DNA of 64,000 bases from Halobellus sp. MBLA0158 (GTDB taxonomy: Archaea > Halobacteriota > Halobacteria > Halobacteriales > Haloferacaceae), in contig NZ_JBGNYA010000001.1 in the NCBI RefSeq assembly GCF_041477585.1, positions 2,046,001-2,110,000 on the forward strand. The letters are read 5' to 3'. The notes under the pieces were generated by a model that did no database searches, was not told the DNA's origin, and was given only the letters and a program-made list of their open reading frames with translations. Below, piece by piece: positions 35,679-43,932 of the stretch (positions are counted from its first letter, which is position 1; each line of letters opens with the position of its first letter). Position numbers and translations under genes: made by a program.

Positions 35679-36659
35679 TCAGTCCAGCCGCTTGAGGACG
35701 GCCGTGGTGACGTCTTCGGTTCCGGCGTCGCCGCCGAGGTCGGGCGTCCGGGGGCCGTCCGCCAGGACGGACTCGACCGCCGCGCGCACGTCGTCGGCCG
35801 CGTCGCCGTACCCGAGGTGATCGAGCAGCATCGCCGCCGAGAGGATCGCCGCCGAGGGGTTGGCGACACCCTCGCCCGCGATGTCGGGCGCGGTGCCGTG
35901 GACGGGCTCGAACAGGGCGTTGTCCGGGCCGACGTTTGCCGACGGGAGGAGGCCGAGGCCGCCGACGAGGCCGGCCGCGAGGTCCGAGAGGACGTCGCCC
36001 GCGAGGTTGGGGCAGACGACGACGTCGAACTGCGTGGGGTCCAGACAGACGCGCGTCGCGAAGGCGTCCATCAGGACCTCCTCGGTCTCGACGCCCTCGC
36101 GCTCGGCGACGTCGACGACGGCGTCGCGGAAGCGGCCGTCGGTCTCGCGCATCACGTTCGCCTTGTGGGCGACGTGGAAGCCGTCGGCGCCGCGCTCGTC
36201 GACGTACTCGCAGGCGAACTCCGCGAGGCGTTCCGAGGCCGAGGTCGTGACGACGCGCGTCAGCGTCGAGAGGTCGTCCGAGAGGCGGTCCTCGTGGCCC
36301 GAGTAGACGCCCTCGGTGTTCTCCCGGAGGAAGACGAGATCTGTCTCCGGGCGGACGGCGTCGACACCCGGGTAGGCCCGCGCGGGCCGGACGTTGACGA
36401 ACGAGCCGACGGCCTCCCGGAGCGGGAGGATCACGTCGGCCGCGGTCTCGCCGGCGGCGCCGAACAGCGTCGCGTCGGCCTCGGCGACGGTGTCGTAGGT
36501 CTCCTGGGGGAGCGCCTCGCCGGTCTCGTCCTTCACGGCGTCGCCGGCCTCGGCGCCGACGAAGCGGAAGTCGCCGACGGCTTCGAGGACGGAGACGGCC
36601 GCGGGGACGACCTCCTTGCCGATGCCGTCGCCCTCGATGACGACGATCTCCTCAGACAT
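35679..36659 (-). CDS. leuB: 3-isopropylmalate dehydrogenase
   Basis: 326 residues, the length of archaeal LeuB. Motifs: N-terminal [15 protein letters not shown], the [14 protein letters not shown] region for cofactor and substrate, and a [24 protein letters not shown] segment near residue 220. Oxidises and decarboxylates 3-isopropylmalate to 2-oxoisocaproate in leucine synthesis with NAD. Last gene of the minus-strand ilvB-N-C-leuC-D-B operon; starts 8 bases inside leuD's end (36652-36659). Confidence 0.95.
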
Positions 36660-37260
36660 CGACGTAGGGGAGTTCGGCGGCTTTCTCGGCGACCGCGTCG
36701 GCGTTGGACTTCATCAGCGCCGTCGTGTCCCAGACGCCCTCGGTGAGCGCCCGCCGCTGTGCGTCGTCGACGGTCGCTTCCACAGTTTTGTCGCCGTAGG
36801 TGACCGTCTCCGATTCGACGTCGACGTGGATCTCGCCGTCGGGGTTCTCGTCGATCCACTCCTGGAGGTCGACGATCGTCTCGTGGTCGGCGGTGACCGT
36901 CGGAATGCCCAGCGCGAGGCAGTTGCCGGCGAAGATCTCGGCGAAGGACTCGCCGACGATCGCGTCGATCCCCCAGCGCATCAGCGCCTGGGGGGCGTGC
37001 TCACGCGAGGAGCCGCAGCCGAAGTTGGCGTTGACCGCGAGGACCGAGGCGTCCTGGAACTGCGGTTCGTTGAAGGGGTGGTCCTTCTGGTTGTCGTCGT
37101 CGTCGAACCGCTGGTCGAAGAAGGCGAACTCGCCGAGGCCGTCGAAGGTGACGACCTTCATGAAGCGCGCCGGGATGATCTGGTCGGTGTCGATGTCGTT
37201 GCCGCGGACGGGGATCCCGGTGCCCGTCACCGAATCGATCTCGGGGATCTCGTCCGTCAT
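36652..37260 (-). CDS. leuD: 3-isopropylmalate dehydratase small subunit
   Basis: 202 residues. The LeuD pattern [19 protein letters not shown] (about residue 80-98) and the N-terminal [22 protein letters not shown] are complete. It forms isopropylmalate isomerase with LeuC (next upstream gene). The ATG at 37260 overlaps the LeuC stop (37257) by 4 bases. No unusual feature. Confidence 0.96.
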
Positions 37261-38678
37261 ACCGTGGTCACCTCCTGCAGGTCGCGCACGTCAGTCACTT
37301 CGCCGTTGATCGCCGCCGCGGCGACCATCCGCGGATTCATCAGGACCGTCCGGCCGTCCTTCGAGCCCTGGCGGCCGATGAAGTTCCGGTTCGAAGAGGA
37401 CGCACACGCCTCGTCGCCCTGCAGCTGGTCCTCGTTCATCCCGAGACACATCGAACAGCCCGCGTTGCGCCACTCGAAGCCGGCGGCCTCGAAGATTTCG
37501 TCCAGGCCCTCCGCCTCGGCGGCGGCCTTCACGCGCTGGCTTCCGGGGACGACCATCGCGCGGACGTCCTCGTCGACCTGTCGGCCCTCGACGATCTCCG
37601 CCGCGCGACGGAGGTCGGGCAGGCGCGCGTTCGTACAGGATCCGAGGAAGGCGACGTCGATCTCGTAGCCCTCCATCGTGTCGCCTGGCTCGACGCGCAT
37701 GTGCTCTTGAGCGCGTCGCGCCGTGTCCTGCTTGTCTTCGGGCAGGGACTCCGGCTCCGGGATCGGCTCGGAGATGCCGATGCCCTGGCCGGGCGTGGTG
37801 CCCCAGGTGACGACGGGCTCCAGTTCGGAGCCGTCGATGGTGACGACGTCGTCGTACTCGGCGTCGTCGTCCGAGCGGATCGACTCCCAGTAGGGTTTGA
37901 GCTCGTCGAACTTCTCGGGGTGCTCCTGGAAGTAGTCGGTCTCCTTGAGCCACTCGTAGGTGGTCTCGTCGGGGTTGACGTAGCCGGCGCGAGCGCCGCC
38001 CTCGATGGACATATTGCAGATGCTCATCCGGCCCTCCATATCGAGGTTCTCGATGGCCTCGCCGGCGTACTCGTAGACGTAGCCGACGCCGCCCTCGGTG
38101 CCGAGTCGGCGGATCACTTCGAGGATGATGTCTTTCGCCTCGACGCCCTCGCCGAGTTCGCCGGTGACCTCGATCTTCCGGACCTTCTTCTTCTCCATCG
38201 CGACGGTCTGGGTCGCCAGCACGTCGCGGATCTGGCTCGTCCCGATCCCGAACGCCAGCGCGCCGAACGCGCCGTGGGTCGAGGTGTGGGAGTCGCCGCA
38301 GACGATCGTCTTGCCGGGCTGGGTGAGCCCCTGCTCGGGCCCGATGACGTGGACGATCCCCTGATCGCCGGTGGATGGGTCGGAGAACTGGATCCCCGAC
38401 TCGCGGACGTTCTCCTCCAGTTCGGACATCATTTCCTCGGCCGCGTCGTCGCGGTACGGACGCGACTGGTCGGCCGTCGGGACGATGTGATCGACGGTCG
38501 CGTGGGTCAGTTCGGGGTAGGCGACCTCCAGGTCGCGCTCCTGCAACATTCCGAACGCCTGGGGGCTCGTCACCTCGTGGATGAGGTGGAGGCCGACGAA
38601 CAGTTGCGTCTGTCCGGTCGGCAGCTCCGAGACGGTGTGTTCCTCCCAGACCTTGTCGTACAGCGTGCCCTCACTCAT
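37257..38678 (-). CDS. leuC: 3-isopropylmalate dehydratase large subunit
   Basis: About 473 residues from ATG 38678; further ATG (38684) and GTG (38687) codons in the same frame are possible starts. Aconitase family: the [4Fe-4S] ligands are in [13 protein letters not shown] (about 135) and the C-terminal [15 protein letters not shown] (about 410), with [19 protein letters not shown] at the N-terminus. It isomerises 2-isopropylmalate. Spacing to ilvC upstream is about 50 bases, so it is co-transcribed. Confidence 0.96.
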
Positions 38679-38728
38679 CGACATCACCTTGGACGTCAGT
38701 GGATACCCGTGTTTCGGTCATCTTCGGA

Positions 38729-39769
<1,041 letters not shown>

Positions 39770-39783
39770 TATGCGTTGAGTCT

Positions 39784-40476
39784 CTATTGTGCGTTTGTCG
39801 GTCGGGTCGGTTCGTCCGCGGTGCCCGGCTTCTCGCCCGGCACGGTCGCCTGATTGCCGCGCGCGAGCGCCGTGTAGCCCGTGCGGGCGATCTCGATGAT
39901 GCCGAACTGCCGGAACGCGTCGATCGCGTCGTCGATCTCCTGCTCGTCGCCGGTGAGCTGGACCGTGATGGTCTTCGGCCCGGCGTCGAGCGTCTGGCCG
40001 TCGTACATCTCGGTGACGGCGTGGACCTTGTCGGGCTCGTCGCCCTCTACCTTCAGGAGGACGAGTTCGGTCCGCACGGCGTCGGCGTCGAGTTCGCCGA
40101 CGGCGATGACGGGCTTGAGCTTGGCGAGCTGCTTTTCGACCTGGTCGATCCCCGGTTCGGGCTCTTCGACGACCAGGGTGATCCGCGAGTGGTTCTCGAC
40201 GGTGGTCGGCCCGACGGTGAGGCTCTCGATGTTGAACTGCCGCCGGGAGAACAGCCCCGAGACCCGCGAGAGGACGCCGGGGTCGTCTTCGACGAGCGCC
40301 GAGATGACCGCGCGCCGCGGCTCGTGTTCGGCCTCGGCTTCGGGATCGATGCGGATCCCCTGGGAGTTGCGCCGTCCCTCCGGGTGGGGGCGCTCGTCCG
40401 GCGAGGGGCCTTTCAGTCCGTGCTTCGGCAGGTCTTCGTCCGAGTCGTCGGTCACCTTGAAGTCGTCCGAGCTCAT
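39784..40476 (-). CDS. ilvN: Acetolactate synthase small (regulatory) subunit
   Basis: 230 residues with two parts: a long acidic N-terminal extension of about 50 residues, then an ACT domain ([20 protein letters not shown] at about 55 to HSRITLVV) and a C-terminal ALS_ss domain. ACT domains bind valine for feedback inhibition of the large subunit. The ATG (40476) overlaps the ilvB stop (40473) by ATGA, so IlvB and IlvN are made together. C-terminus ends in a disordered Pro/Thr-rich tail. Confidence 0.94.
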
Positions 40477-42227
40477 AGCTGGTCCTCCGTGAGTGCGAAT
40501 TTGCCGTTCGCGCCACCCGAGGGAACCATCGGGTAGACGTTCTCCGCCGGGTCGATGTGGAAGTCGATGACCGAGGGGCCGTCGTACGACAGCGCCTTTT
40601 CGACGGTGTCTGCGACCTCGTCGTAGTCGTCGACGCGGAAGCCGCGCGCTCCGAACGCCTCGGCCAGCATGTCGAACTCCGGACACCAGTTGTACTCCGC
40701 GGCCATCCGGCGGCCCTCGAAGAAGGCGTCCTGCCACTGGCGGACCATCCCGATGTACTCGTTGTTCAGGACCGCGACGGTGATGTCGAGGTCCTCGCGG
40801 ACGGCGACAGAGAGCGCCTGGATCGTCATCAGGAAGGAGCCGTCGCCGTCGATACACACGACCTGCTGGTCGTCGTCGGCCGCGATGCGCGCGCCGACGG
40901 CGGCCGGGAGGCCGTAGCCCATCGTCCCGAGCCCGTGGCTGGAGACCCAGGTGCGCGGCTCGGAGAAGGTCCAGTACTGGGCGGCCCACATCTGGTGCTG
41001 GCCGACGCCGGTCGTGACGATGGTGTCGTCGGCGGTCGCCTCGTCGAGCACCTCGACGACGAACTGCGGCTTCAGCGGCTCGTCGTCCGGGGTCGCATAG
41101 TCCATCGGGTACTCGTCCTGCCAGGTGAGACACTGCTCGCGCCACGATTCGGCCTCGGGCGCGCGACCGATGGCGTCGTCGAGCTGGTCGAGGACGATCC
41201 CCGCGTCGCCGATCAGCGGGTAGTCAGCGTGGACGTTCTTCGAGATCTCGGCGGGATCGATGTCGATGTGGATGACCTCCGCCTCCGGCGCGAAGGTGTC
41301 GATGCCGCCGGTGAGGCGGTCGTCGAACCGGGTCCCGACCGCGATCAGCAGATCGGTGTGGGTGATCGCCATATTGGCGTAGCCCGTGCCGTGCATCCCC
41401 GCCCACGAGAGACAGAGGTCGTCGTCCTCGGGGAACGAGCCGATGCCCGGCATCGTCGTGACGACGGGGATCTCGTACTCGCGCGCGAACGAGCGCGCCT
41501 CGTCGGTCGCGTCGGCCTTGATCACGCCGCCGCCGAACAGCAGCAGCGGGCGCTCTGCGGCCTCGATCGCGTCGGCCGCCTCGCGGACGTCGGCCTCGTC
41601 GGCGACGTACTGCGGCTGGGTCGTCTCCGGCGGCGTCGCCGGGCCGGGCTCGGCGTCGGTCTCGCCGAGCGTGACGTCCTTCGGGAGGTCGACGAGCGTC
41701 GGCCCCGGTCGCCCCTCGTCGGCCAGGGCGATCGCCTCGCCGACGGTGTCGCCGACGGAGTCGGGGTCGTCGGCGAAGTAGTTGTGCTTCGTGATGGGCG
41801 CTGTCACGCCGGTGGTATCTGTCTCCTGGAACGCGTCGGAGCCGACCATGTCCGCCGGGACCTGGCCGGTGAGCGCGACGAGGCCGTCGGAGTCCATGTT
41901 CGCGTCGGCGATGCCGGTGACGAGGTTCGTCGCCCCCGGCCCCGACGTCGCGAGGCAGACGCCCGGCTCGTTGCGGACGACGCTGAAGGCGTCGGCCGCG
42001 TGTGCGGCGCCCTGCTCGTGGGCCATCGTGATGTGCCGGATGTCGGAGTGATACAGCGCGTCGTAGACGGGCATAATCGCCCCGCCCTGGACGCCGAAGG
42101 CGGCCTCGACGCCCGCGTTTTCCAGGGCGCGGATGACCGACTCCGAGCCGGTCGTTACGGGGCCGATGGCCCGTTCCTCGTCGGCCTCCTCTTCGGTCGC
42201 CGACGGCGGCTGTTCCTGCTTGCTCAT
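40473..42227 (-). CDS. ilvB: Acetolactate synthase large subunit
   Basis: 584 residues, full-length. N-terminal TPP domain starts near residue 30 with the glutamate region [22 protein letters not shown], and the C-terminal TPP-binding motif is [21 protein letters not shown] with [19 protein letters not shown]. It condenses two pyruvates or pyruvate with 2-oxobutyrate. AGGAGG lies nine bases before the ATG on this strand, an exceptional Shine-Dalgarno here. It is the first enzyme of the operon and lies 161 bases after the stop of the leader ORF at 42388-42516. Confidence 0.97.
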
Positions 42228-42387
42228 CGGCGAGACCCTCCTGCGGGGGTGGTCTGCTGGCGGTGCGTCGGTCGTGTGTGTGGAGTTCGGGGTCGAGCGT
42301 CGTGTGGCATTGGCCTGGTGTTACGGTTGCTGGTCGGTCGAACGGCGGGCGCGAACTGACGAGAATCGAAAACGGGTGTGTGAGGGG
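42228..42387 (-). promoter_or_regulatory. Untranslated leader between leader ORF and ilvB
   Basis: About 160 bases between the leader ORF stop (42388-42390) and ilvB. Just after the leader ORF a GGGGCCCC palindrome with flanking AGGGG/CCCCT repeats (minus strand, about 42377-42396) can form a GC-rich hairpin, followed by CCCGTTTTCG at about 42364-42376. This arrangement resembles a weak attenuator or terminator. An AGGAGG ribosome-binding site lies at about 42237-42243. The role in attenuation is inference. Confidence 0.4.
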
Positions 42388-42516
42388 CTAGGGGGCCCCT
42401 ACGATGATCCGCGAGACGACGTCGAGACCGCCCTCGACGCCGGGCGACCGCCGCCCGTCGACGGGAGCCGCCGCTCTCCGAGCGGCGGACGTCGCGGGGG
42501 TGTGCGGTCGTCGCAT
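42388..42516 (-). CDS. Candidate ilv leader peptide (attenuator ORF), 42 residues
   Basis: A short ORF of ATG plus 42 codons and TAG between leuA and ilvB. The peptide starts MRRPHTPATSAARRAAAP and ends GGLDVVSRIIVGAP. The Val/Ile-rich end and GAP-type terminus resemble E. coli IvbL/IlvGMEDA leader peptides. Its ATG lies about 26-30 bases after a strong BRE/TATA promoter (42543-42558), so a leaderless transcript would begin at the ATG. A perfect 9-bp hairpin lies in the ORF around the Ala/Arg codons (about 42469-42489) and others follow. Not in any gene list known to me; proposal, not proof. Confidence 0.55.
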   Translation of the reverse strand: MRRPHTPATSAARRAAAPVDGRRSPGVEGGLDVVSRIIVGAP

Positions 42517-42542
42517 CGTACCCGATAGATGATTCTGGTCCG

Positions 42543-42558
42543 TAATTAACGTTTCGCG
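42543..42558 (-). promoter_or_regulatory. BRE/TATA promoter of ilv leader and ilvBNC-leuCDB operon
   Basis: Reading the minus strand: BRE CGCGAAACG (42558-42550) directly followed by TATA TTAATTA (42549-42543). This is one of the clearest haloarchaeal promoters in the window. The predicted start is about 42518-42522, 2-6 bases before the leader ATG at 42516, so the leader ORF is translated from the transcript's first codons. Confidence 0.65.
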
Positions 42559-42630: not shown

Positions 42631-43932
42631 TCAGGCGCGGACCTCCTCCTCGTCCTCGTCGGCGCGGTCGACGCCGACCTCGCGGGCGAAGCGCGTCAAC
42701 ACGTCGACGGTGACGCGCTCCTTCTCCGCGCCGTAGTCCTTCACGCGACGGGTCACGTCACGTACCTCGGTATCGGTCGGCGCGAAGCCGGATTCTTCGA
42801 GCCGCTTTCGGACCGAGTGCGTCCCGGTGTGCTTGCCGAGGACGAACTCTCGCTGGGCGCCGACCATCTCGGGGGTCATCACGCCCGGCTCGAAGGTGTC
42901 GGAGTTCTCGATGACGCCCGCGGCGTGGATGCCGCTCTCGTGTGAGAAGGCGTTCCGTCCTACGACCGGCTTGTTCGCCGGAACCGGGATGTCGCTCGCC
43001 TCCTCGACCATCCGCGACAGTTCGGTGATTCGGGTGGTGTCGATCCCCGTGTCCACGTTGTACAGCGACTCCGCGGACATCACGACCTCCTCAAACGCGG
43101 CGTTACCGGCGCGCTCGCCGATGCCGTTGACCGACACCTGCGCCTGCGACGCGCCGGCCTCGAAGCCCGCCATCGCGTTGGCGGCCGCCAGCCCGAAGTC
43201 GTCGTGGGCGTGGACGTCGATCCGCGCGTCGGTGTGCTTGCGCACCTCGCGGATCATCCCGGCGAAGCGGGTCGGCGTCGCGACCCCGCAGGTGTCCGGG
43301 ATGTTGATCCAGTCCACGTCGACCTCGTCGACGGCCGAGATGATCTCGGCCAGGAAGTCGATGTCGGTCCGGGTGGCGTCCATCGGGGAGAACATCACCT
43401 CGACGCCCGCGTCCTTCACGCGCTCGACGCTCTCGACCGCCCGCTCGACGGCCTCTTCGCGGGAGGCGTGCATCGAGTCGGCCAGCTGCACGTCGCTCGT
43501 GCTGACGAAGACGTGGACCAGTTCCACGCCGGAGTCGAGCGCGGCCTCTACGTCTTTCTCGACGACGCGCGCCAGCCCGCAGACGGTCGTGTCCGTCGCG
43601 GCGGCGATGTCGCTCACGGACTCGAACTCGGCGTCCGAGTTGACCGGGAACCCCGCCTCGATGACGTGGGTGCCCATCTCGTCCAGCGTCGCGGCTATGT
43701 CCCGCTTTTCGTCGTAGCTGAACGAAGTGCGTGGCGACTGTTCGCCGTCGCGGAGCGTCGTGTCAAAAATCCGTACCTCGTCGATCTCGGATTCAGTTAT
43801 TTGGGCTAATGTGCCCTGGAAGAACTCGACCAGCCGGGGTGTCCGACTGAGCCTCCATGTCGTCGTGAGACATTGTACTCGATACCTGCCCGGAAAGATA
43901 TTAAAGGCTTTCGCTGTGGGGATCTGCGTCAC
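42631..43932 (-). CDS. leuA: 2-isopropylmalate synthase (start uncertain, possible N-terminal frameshift)
   Basis: The LeuA frame is open from GTG 43932 to stop 42631 (433 residues). The protein body is complete: RIFDTTLRDGEQSPRTSF (about 53-70), EAGFPVNSDAEF, and HAHDDFGLAAANAMAGFEAG with metal-binding His, then NGIGERAGNAAFEEV. The first 35 residues contain the promoter TTTAATATC (43898-43905) and are probably not translated. The transcript start predicted from it is near 43875, but the nearest ATG (43873) lies in another frame. No ATG, GTG or TTG in the LeuA frame lies between 43875 and the conserved VEFFQGTL. So a one-base frameshift or an unusual start is likely. Co-located with the ilv operon. 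Confidence 0.85.
   Translation of the reverse strand: MTQIPTAKAFNIFPGRYRVQCLTTTWRLSRTPRLVEFFQGTLAQITESEIDEVRIFDTTLRDGEQSPRTSFSYDEKRDIAATLDEMGTHVIEAGFPVNSDAEFESVSDIAAATDTTVCGLARVVEKDVEAALDSGVELVHVFVSTSDVQLADSMHASREEAVERAVESVERVKDAGVEVMFSPMDATRTDIDFLAEIISAVDEVDVDWINIPDTCGVATPTRFAGMIREVRKHTDARIDVHAHDDFGLAAANAMAGFEAGASQAQVSVNGIGERAGNAAFEEVVMSAESLYNVDTGIDTTRITELSRMVEEASDIPVPANKPVVGRNAFSHESGIHAAGVIENSDTFEPGVMTPEMVGAQREFVLGKHTGTHSVRKRLEESGFAPTDTEVRDVTRRVKDYGAEKERVTVDVLTRFAREVGVDRADEDEEEVRA
43793..43873 (-). CDS. Overlapping 26-codon ORF at leuA transcript start
   Basis: ATG at 43873 lies just at the transcription start predicted from the BRE/TATA at 43898-43914 and is read in a different frame from LeuA. 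The ORF gives MSHDDMEAQSDTPAGRV and ends with PNN before TGA at 43793. Its first 13 residues resemble a plausible N-terminus for LeuA, and the LeuA frame begins LVEFFQGTL right after the ACACCCCGG stretch near 43836-43843; one base gain or loss there would join them. Thus it is either the true LeuA N-terminus cut by a frameshift (or error), or a leaderless upstream ORF that overlaps leuA. Confidence 0.45.
   Translation of the reverse strand: MSHDDMEAQSDTPAGRVLPGHISPNN
43898..43914 (-). promoter_or_regulatory. BRE/TATA promoter of leuA
   Basis: On the minus strand GCGAAAGCC (43914-43906) is followed by TTTAATATC-type TATA (43905-43898), matching the ilv promoter in form. The expected start, about 26 bases downstream, falls at 43872-43876, next to the ATG at 43873. 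Confidence 0.6.

Follow-up and report, generated by a model that had tools for sequence, protein, structure and literature searches.

Introduction

Ribosome-mediated attenuation is a textbook bacterial mechanism, and attenuators of this kind usually employ rare cognate codons. The leader of the E. coli ivbL-ilvBN operon is a ribosome-mediated attenuator of the Gammaproteobacteria. Archaea likewise couple transcription and translation. The leader described here, from the haloarchaeon Halobellus, resembles ivbL-ilvBN in that an acetolactate synthase operon is preceded by a short ORF containing Val/Ile codons, and in the proposed sensing of tRNA charge through the position of the ribosome. It differs in its predicted leaderless transcript, in having one to three rare branched-chain amino acid (BCAA) codons instead of runs, and in its archaeal T-tract. 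It also has a single stop-containing hairpin that begins at the regulatory codon, with no conserved antiterminator and no sequence homology to the E. coli leader.

In Corynebacterium, a uORF regulates the ilvBNC operon; an ilvB-II motif (PMC10272879) and a three-hairpin attenuator (PMC11857589) are reported for it. The likeness to the present locus is the uORF upstream of ilvBNC; the differences are that the system is bacterial and that three hairpins are proposed for it.

Among haloarchaea, 16 uORFs of 15–31 codons were listed in H. volcanii 5′-UTRs of 150–250 nt from cells in complex medium, with no mechanism proposed (PMC4983044); ilvB is not among the 16. For leuA2 (HVO_1510), a neighboring BCAA gene of the same cluster, the start codon is missing, and slippage from an out-of-frame ATG together with leucine-dependent translation has been suggested (Pfeiffer and Dyall-Smith 2021, PMC8305020). 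That suggestion concerns recoding within leuA, and the main text of the paper makes no mention of an ilvB leader. A search of the open-access literature found no archaeal ribosome-mediated attenuator; prior notice is possible, most subscription papers lying outside the search.

The leader in the Halobellus window

The window is the whole stretch of 64,000 nucleotides of Halobellus DNA that was analysed. On its minus strand, between leuA (upstream) and ilvBNC-leuCDB (downstream), lies a leader ORF (uORF) of 42 codons, running from the ATG at 42516–42514 to the TAG at 42390–42388 and encoding MRRPHTPATSAARRAAAPVDGRRSPGVEGGLDVVSRIIVGAP (Table 1). The BRE/TATA element CGAAACGTTAATTA occupies 42556–42543, which puts the first T of the TATA 33 nt upstream of the uORF ATG. 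The final codons of the uORF are ATC ATC GTA GGG GCC CCC TAG, and the peptide ends in SRIIVGAP. The sequence GGGGC-CCCCTA-GCCCC can form a hairpin of five pairs whose stem opens immediately after GTA and whose 3′ side includes the TAG. It is followed on the 3′ side by a G-poor tract with a run of four T, and ilvB starts about 160 nt past the uORF stop. A prior reading of the letters alone had described this 42-codon ORF with a clear BRE/TATA between leuA and ilvB, GC hairpins and a T4 run after the ORF, and ilvB about 160 bases on; the ORF is as it had it.

Table 1. Features of the leader and the surrounding gene cluster, in window positions.
Feature	Position	Strand	Basis
BRE/TATA promoter of the leader ORF (TTAATTA)	42541–42558	minus	Sequence and TATA-ATG spacing; leaderless transcript predicted to begin at the ATG or a few nt upstream
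Leader ORF (uORF), 42 codons, ending in RIIVGAP	42388–42516	minus	Sequence; frame open in 84/86 loci with an ATG after the TATA
Regulatory codons ATC-ATC-GTA (Ile-Ile-Val)	42400–42408	minus	GTA invariant in 91/91 leaders
Conserved hairpin GGGGC-CCCCTA-GCCCC, stop codon within	42384–42399	minus	Compensatory changes at pairs 1, 4 and 5; folding energy
G-poor pyrimidine/T-rich tract with T4 (42369–42372), putative termination region	42355–42383	minus	TTT clustering across loci
ilvB, acetolactate synthase large subunit, proposed controlled gene	40473–42227	minus	NCBIfam TIGR00118
ilvN, acetolactate synthase small subunit	39784–40476	minus	NCBIfam TIGR00119
ilvC, ketol-acid reductoisomerase	38729–39769	minus	NCBIfam NF004017
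leuC (37257–38687), leuD (36652–37260), leuB (35679–36659)	35679–38687	minus	NCBIfam; for leuB, a subfamily match under the model cut-off, combined with gene context
Zero-frame 5′ part of leuA, MSHDDMEAQSDTPAGRVLPGHISPNN followed by a stop; related but separate element; candidate +1 shift site CGA-GTT-CTT (43820–43828)	43793–43873	minus	

Distribution across Halobacteria

Of the 391 class genomes scanned, 375 have a strict motif, ATH-GTA-GGGG-N(1-12)-CCCC, about once per genome, whereas the reversed-pattern control was mostly 0 in the same genomes. Outside Halobacteria the motif showed no enrichment over control. Upstream of ilvB, 79 of 80 fetched haloarchaeal loci carry GTAGGGG and a GGGG..CCCC hairpin, and the lone apparent exception (L083) has GTA-GGGCC-cgccta-GGCCC. 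An early motif scan had missed most homologues because it required too narrow a peptide end.

The 16 genomes without the strict motif were traced through their ilvB genes. Ten proved to hold variants, either base-pair-compensated stems (GTA-CGGGCC-cgtta-GGCCCG, GTA-C-GGGCC-gctcc-GGCCC and, again, GTA-GGGCC-cgccta-GGCCC) or codon changes (GTA-GTA or GTC-GTA before the hairpin, CTC-GTA and CGC-GTA). Four are deep-branching small genomes in which the end of leuA lies close to ilvB, with no leader. The last two could not be assessed, one genome having no ilvB match and the other a match too partial.

As its own check, the sequence-only reading had asked whether haloarchaeal alignments keep a short ORF that ends in Val/Ile/Leu codons, together with hairpins; the comparison passed this check strongly. 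Among the details it had picked out, only the terminal hairpin and the final Ile-Val(GTA) codons are kept; the earlier V-V pair, the GC hairpins upstream and the 'GAP' C-terminus are unconserved.

Predicted translation of the leader ORF

The position of the TATA was determined without reference to the ORF, and the first ATG 22–60 nt on was chosen. This ATG was open and in frame with GTA in 84 of 86 loci, against an expectation of about one third, over ATG-to-GTA distances of 13 to 50 codons. The remaining two loci have an in-frame ATG that overlaps or follows the first. Five loci have no ATG after the TATA; one of them (L130) has, by inspection, an in-frame GTG. The distance from the first T of the TATA to the ATG is 30–33 nt in most loci, which is the leaderless arrangement. 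With this TATA and in-frame ATG, and with frame and stop kept, the leader has the promoter and short ORF of a ribosome-mediated attenuator, its translation being predicted.

By the TATA-ATG rule, a uORF promoter was found in 78 of 81 loci, and in 78 of 81 ilvB has no promoter of its own (a TATA at leaderless distance) downstream of the leader. As a control, the same rule was applied to trpC and ilvD of 29 genomes. It returned the gene's own ATG in nearly all cases and no conserved uORF, showing that the rule does not manufacture uORFs.

The uORF design was also considered as a general trait of haloarchaeal amino-acid genes; this was ruled out, as trpC and ilvD have ordinary leaderless starts.

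The body of the uORF is unconserved in sequence and not acidic, and its GC content by codon position (0.76/0.68/0.80) is unlike that of haloarchaeal genes. The lack of conservation and the non-gene composition are more in keeping with a leader peptide than with a small protein that has a function of its own. A search with the whole 42-aa peptide gave no convincing homologues besides itself, the rest being low-complexity Arg/Ala matches; it was uninformative because the conserved part is too short.

A C-terminal IVGA or IIVGV is common to most loci, as would be expected if the uORF encoded a nascent-chain arrest peptide or a functional small protein and did not act as a codon sensor. Nevertheless, this explanation is improbable in view of the features of the body given above and of variants that end in IVRAR or VRAAPAH and keep the hairpin, so that the peptide changes while the RNA stem is retained. 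The C-termini in haloarchaea include GA, GV, GAx and RAR, with no Val run. As the last residues vary, the resemblance to the GNAP end of E. coli IvbL that had been noticed in the Halobellus peptide was rejected as coincidence. The leader does not belong to the IvbL leader peptide family, with which it shares neither sequence homology nor a Val run ending in GNAP.

Regulatory codons

GTA is invariant, being present in 91 of 91 leaders. In 82 leaders the preceding codon is for Ile; four others have Val, one has Leu, and four have Arg (CGC directly before GTA). Pathway codons therefore precede GTA in 87 of 91 leaders, and the stem follows GTA directly in nearly all. Both GTA and ATT are scarce in ilvB genes: GTA makes up 0.5% of their Val codons (20 occurrences) and 5 of 217 Val codons in the window genes, and ATT, at 7% of the Ile codons in ilvB, accounts for 63 of the 82 leader Ile codons before GTA. 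Conservation is limited to a single BCAA codon or a few, fewer than in most bacterial attenuators. Since it is GTA itself, and not any Val codon, that is invariant, part of its conservation could lie at the nucleotide level.

A conserved hairpin containing the stop codon

The hairpin was analysed in 90 leaders with 47 distinct hairpins, using the nearest 3′ arm. It is a GC stem of 4–6 bp directly after GTA with an overall length of 13–17 nt. Compensatory changes were seen at stem pairs 1, 4 and 5. Pair 1 is G-C in 89 leaders and C-G in 1; at pair 4, 87 leaders have G-C and 3 have C-G. The fifth pair is C-G in 63, T-A in 18 and T-G in 4, with 5 mismatches and no C-A, for a Fisher p of 6e-15 without correction for phylogeny. 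An in-frame stop (TAG, TAA or TGA) lies within the hairpin in 88 of 90 leaders despite the varying loop length. Folding of the 26 nt from GTA gave a mean energy of -12.2 kcal/mol and a mean z of -2.75.

These observations bear on the possibility that the palindrome GGGGC..GCCCC is a binding site for a regulator, acting on DNA or RNA, and that the ORF is incidental. The palindrome is GC-rich and GTAGGGG is invariant in nearly all loci, as a regulator site would require. Nevertheless, such a site is hard to reconcile with half-sites whose spacing varies among hairpins of 13–17 nt and whose arms change with compensation. The promoter lies at distances that differ by multiples of three, which preserves the frame, the BCAA codons are kept in the right frame, and there is only about one site per genome. 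The binding-site explanation is accordingly given little credence.

Within-genus alignments reaching 70 nt past GTA revealed no second stem common to several genera, and upstream structures differ from genus to genus. In place of mutually exclusive antiterminator and terminator hairpins, these alignments have one shared stem only. As no mutually exclusive hairpins are conserved, the element is classed as working like the known attenuators with a different architecture. Searches against Rfam 15, including riboswitches, T-box and ilv/leu leaders, gave no relevant match in the window or in 8 loci; two matches in the window were at chance level and lay elsewhere. A 'leuA-Halobacteria' RNA motif was not supported by Rfam 15 or by a paper search, and no claim is made for it.

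Short ORFs are common in GC-rich DNA, and the 42-aa peptide has no convincing homologues. It was considered whether the uORF might be a chance ORF in a GC-rich gap or part of a functionless haloarchaeal sequence family. This is very improbable and is excluded by the comparative data, namely the class-wide conservation, the compensatory changes and the maintenance of frame. The occurrence of about one motif per genome in 375 of 391 genomes, the frame kept in 84 of 86 loci and the trpC/ilvD control without a uORF confirmed, at the level of sequence comparison, that the leader element is real and beyond chance. On the same comparisons, it is almost certainly a regulatory translated uORF with a hairpin.

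The downstream tract and putative termination

The 15 nt past the hairpin are nearly G-free (3–5%), with a peak of T at 10–15 nt. The density of TTT is 0.03 per nt at 20–60 nt after GTA and near zero beyond 80 nt. At 18–60 nt after GTA, TTT is present in 58% of loci versus 1.4% at 80–122 nt, against a background of 10.8% in trpC flanks, and TTTT is present in 36% versus 0. With one representative per genus, TTT was found in 25 of 39 at 18–60 nt and in 0 of 35 at 80–122 nt. The remaining 42% of loci have no TTT at 18–60 nt, and many Halorubrum have CCTTCCT only. About ten A/C-rich nucleotides separate the hairpin from the T-tract, unlike in a bacterial terminator. A scan for bacterial promoters and terminators found nothing, as expected for archaeal DNA.

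Intergenic terminators of H. volcanii are stretches of T with C after them, and 59% of transcripts ended at one hairpin that was tested (PMC7237163). The T-tract and this terminator pattern support putative termination at the leader, short of proof.

A second conserved block, CACCGTTTTC(A/G), lies about 45–60 nt after GTA in Haloferax and some Natrialbales (L016–L024, L033, L042, L058). It resembles the T-stretch-plus-C terminator of H. volcanii.

Control could instead operate on translation or mRNA stability, the position of the ribosome altering leader folding, cleavage, stability or ilvB translation with no termination in the leader. The uORF, the BCAA codons and the hairpin suit any ribosome-sensing model, the T-tract is weak in many loci, and an SD-like GGAGGTGA stands ahead of the Halobellus ilvB start. 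This explanation deserves some weight but is unlikely. The T-runs keep a constant spacing from the hairpin and hardly occur elsewhere in the leader, and the alignments, which reach 70 nt past GTA, have no second stem common to genera. Moreover, the distance from the uORF stop to the ilvB start varies from 94 to 552 nt, so that neither coupling nor re-initiation over a set distance is likely.

Proposed mechanism of attenuation

The leader is probably a cis-acting, ribosome-sensing transcription attenuator of ilvBNC-leuCDB that works by direct occlusion. Its anatomy (promoter, frame, codons, hairpin, stop position and T-tract) is well supported by the comparisons; termination, occlusion and the amino-acid response are what we infer from that anatomy.

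As judged from conservation, transcription from the TATA just before the uORF would yield a leaderless mRNA, and a ribosome would engage its 5′ AUG. The ribosome would then translate an unconserved short peptide up to the rare Ile(/Val/Leu)-Val(GUA) pair that abuts the stop-holding, GC-rich hairpin. With charged Ile- and Val-tRNA present, it would pass quickly, terminate in the hairpin and depart. The hairpin would fold behind RNA polymerase, which would stop in the G-poor, T-rich tract 18–60 nt downstream, either intrinsically or with aCPSF1/FttA. When Ile or Val is scarce, the ribosome would wait at AUU/GUA and cover the 5′ arm, the hairpin would be blocked, and RNA polymerase would continue into ilvB and the genes behind it in the operon.

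The leading edge of a ribosome lies about 12 nt beyond its A-site codon. A ribosome with GUA in the A site would thus cover the 5′ arm and most of the loop, and when stalled would directly prevent the hairpin. Direct occlusion has the right sign, since starvation would turn the operon on without an antiterminator. It is also the simplest model, because the sole conserved stem starts at the regulatory GTA and no set of alternative hairpins is conserved. The sequence-only reading had proposed a ribosome-mediated ilv attenuator; the conserved ORF, its Val/Ile/Leu end and the hairpin support this, whereas alternative hairpins of the bacterial type do not form part of the picture.

The out-of-frame start of leuA and the allosteric domain of LeuA

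In the window, the leaderless leuA ATG at 43873 opens a short reading frame that is one base out of the LeuA frame. By the TATA-ATG rule, 75 of 78 loci have a first leaderless leuA ATG that reaches the LeuA frame only through a +1 shift; a second ATG with this property occurs in two more. Wherever the shift is needed, the GTT-CTT junction is invariant. The preceding codon is CGA, once CGG, and the codon after the junction varies (CCA, CGA, CAA or GCA). The exact 18-mer CGAGTTCTTNNAGGGCAC was found in 246 of 292 genomes. This conservation suggests that leuA is under programmed +1 frameshifting at the near-invariant CGA-GTT-CTT. The recoding is possibly leucine-dependent, in keeping with the conservation of CTT, a rare Leu codon, where the shift would occur. 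The +1 frame offset in nearly all loci extends the slippage suspicion published for HVO_1510.

In one locus (L076, a MAG), the zero-frame start of leuA, upstream of ilvB, is fused in frame to LeuA (MSDTEGTSASPADRVL-DTTLRDGEQ) and the shift site is deleted. This fusion gives natural support for the zero-frame leuA start.

Pfam searches showed that the LeuA proteins of the window and of L084 have no LeuA_dimer allosteric domain (PF08502). In the deep branch that lacks the leader, PF08502 was found by Pfam in L138, and L137, L139 and L141 look alike by sequence. Translation-based control may have replaced LeuA allostery, a correlation that involves few lineages.

Taken as a whole, the combined reading is held with slightly better than even confidence. 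The leader would be the first ribosome-mediated attenuator in Archaea, present in the main haloarchaeal clade and working through hairpin occlusion by a leaderless ribosome paused at AUU-GUA. It would stand beside a leucine-codon-dependent, +1-frameshifted leuA, both sensors jointly controlling the branched-chain pathway where the cluster LeuA lacks the allosteric leucine domain. If true, this adds a regulatory layer in a clade whose cluster LeuA is without LeuA_dimer. The element is compact and conserved in the tractable Haloferax, making archaeal ribosome control of RNA polymerase read-through directly testable.

Leaders of this type can escape genome-wide scans because the peptide is unconserved, the structure spans only about 16 nt and the published uORF survey was limited to leaders of 250 nt. 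Two of the 16 uORFs in that H. volcanii survey precede tryptophan- and phenylalanine-tRNA ligase genes (PMC4983044) and could be further amino-acid-sensing leaders.
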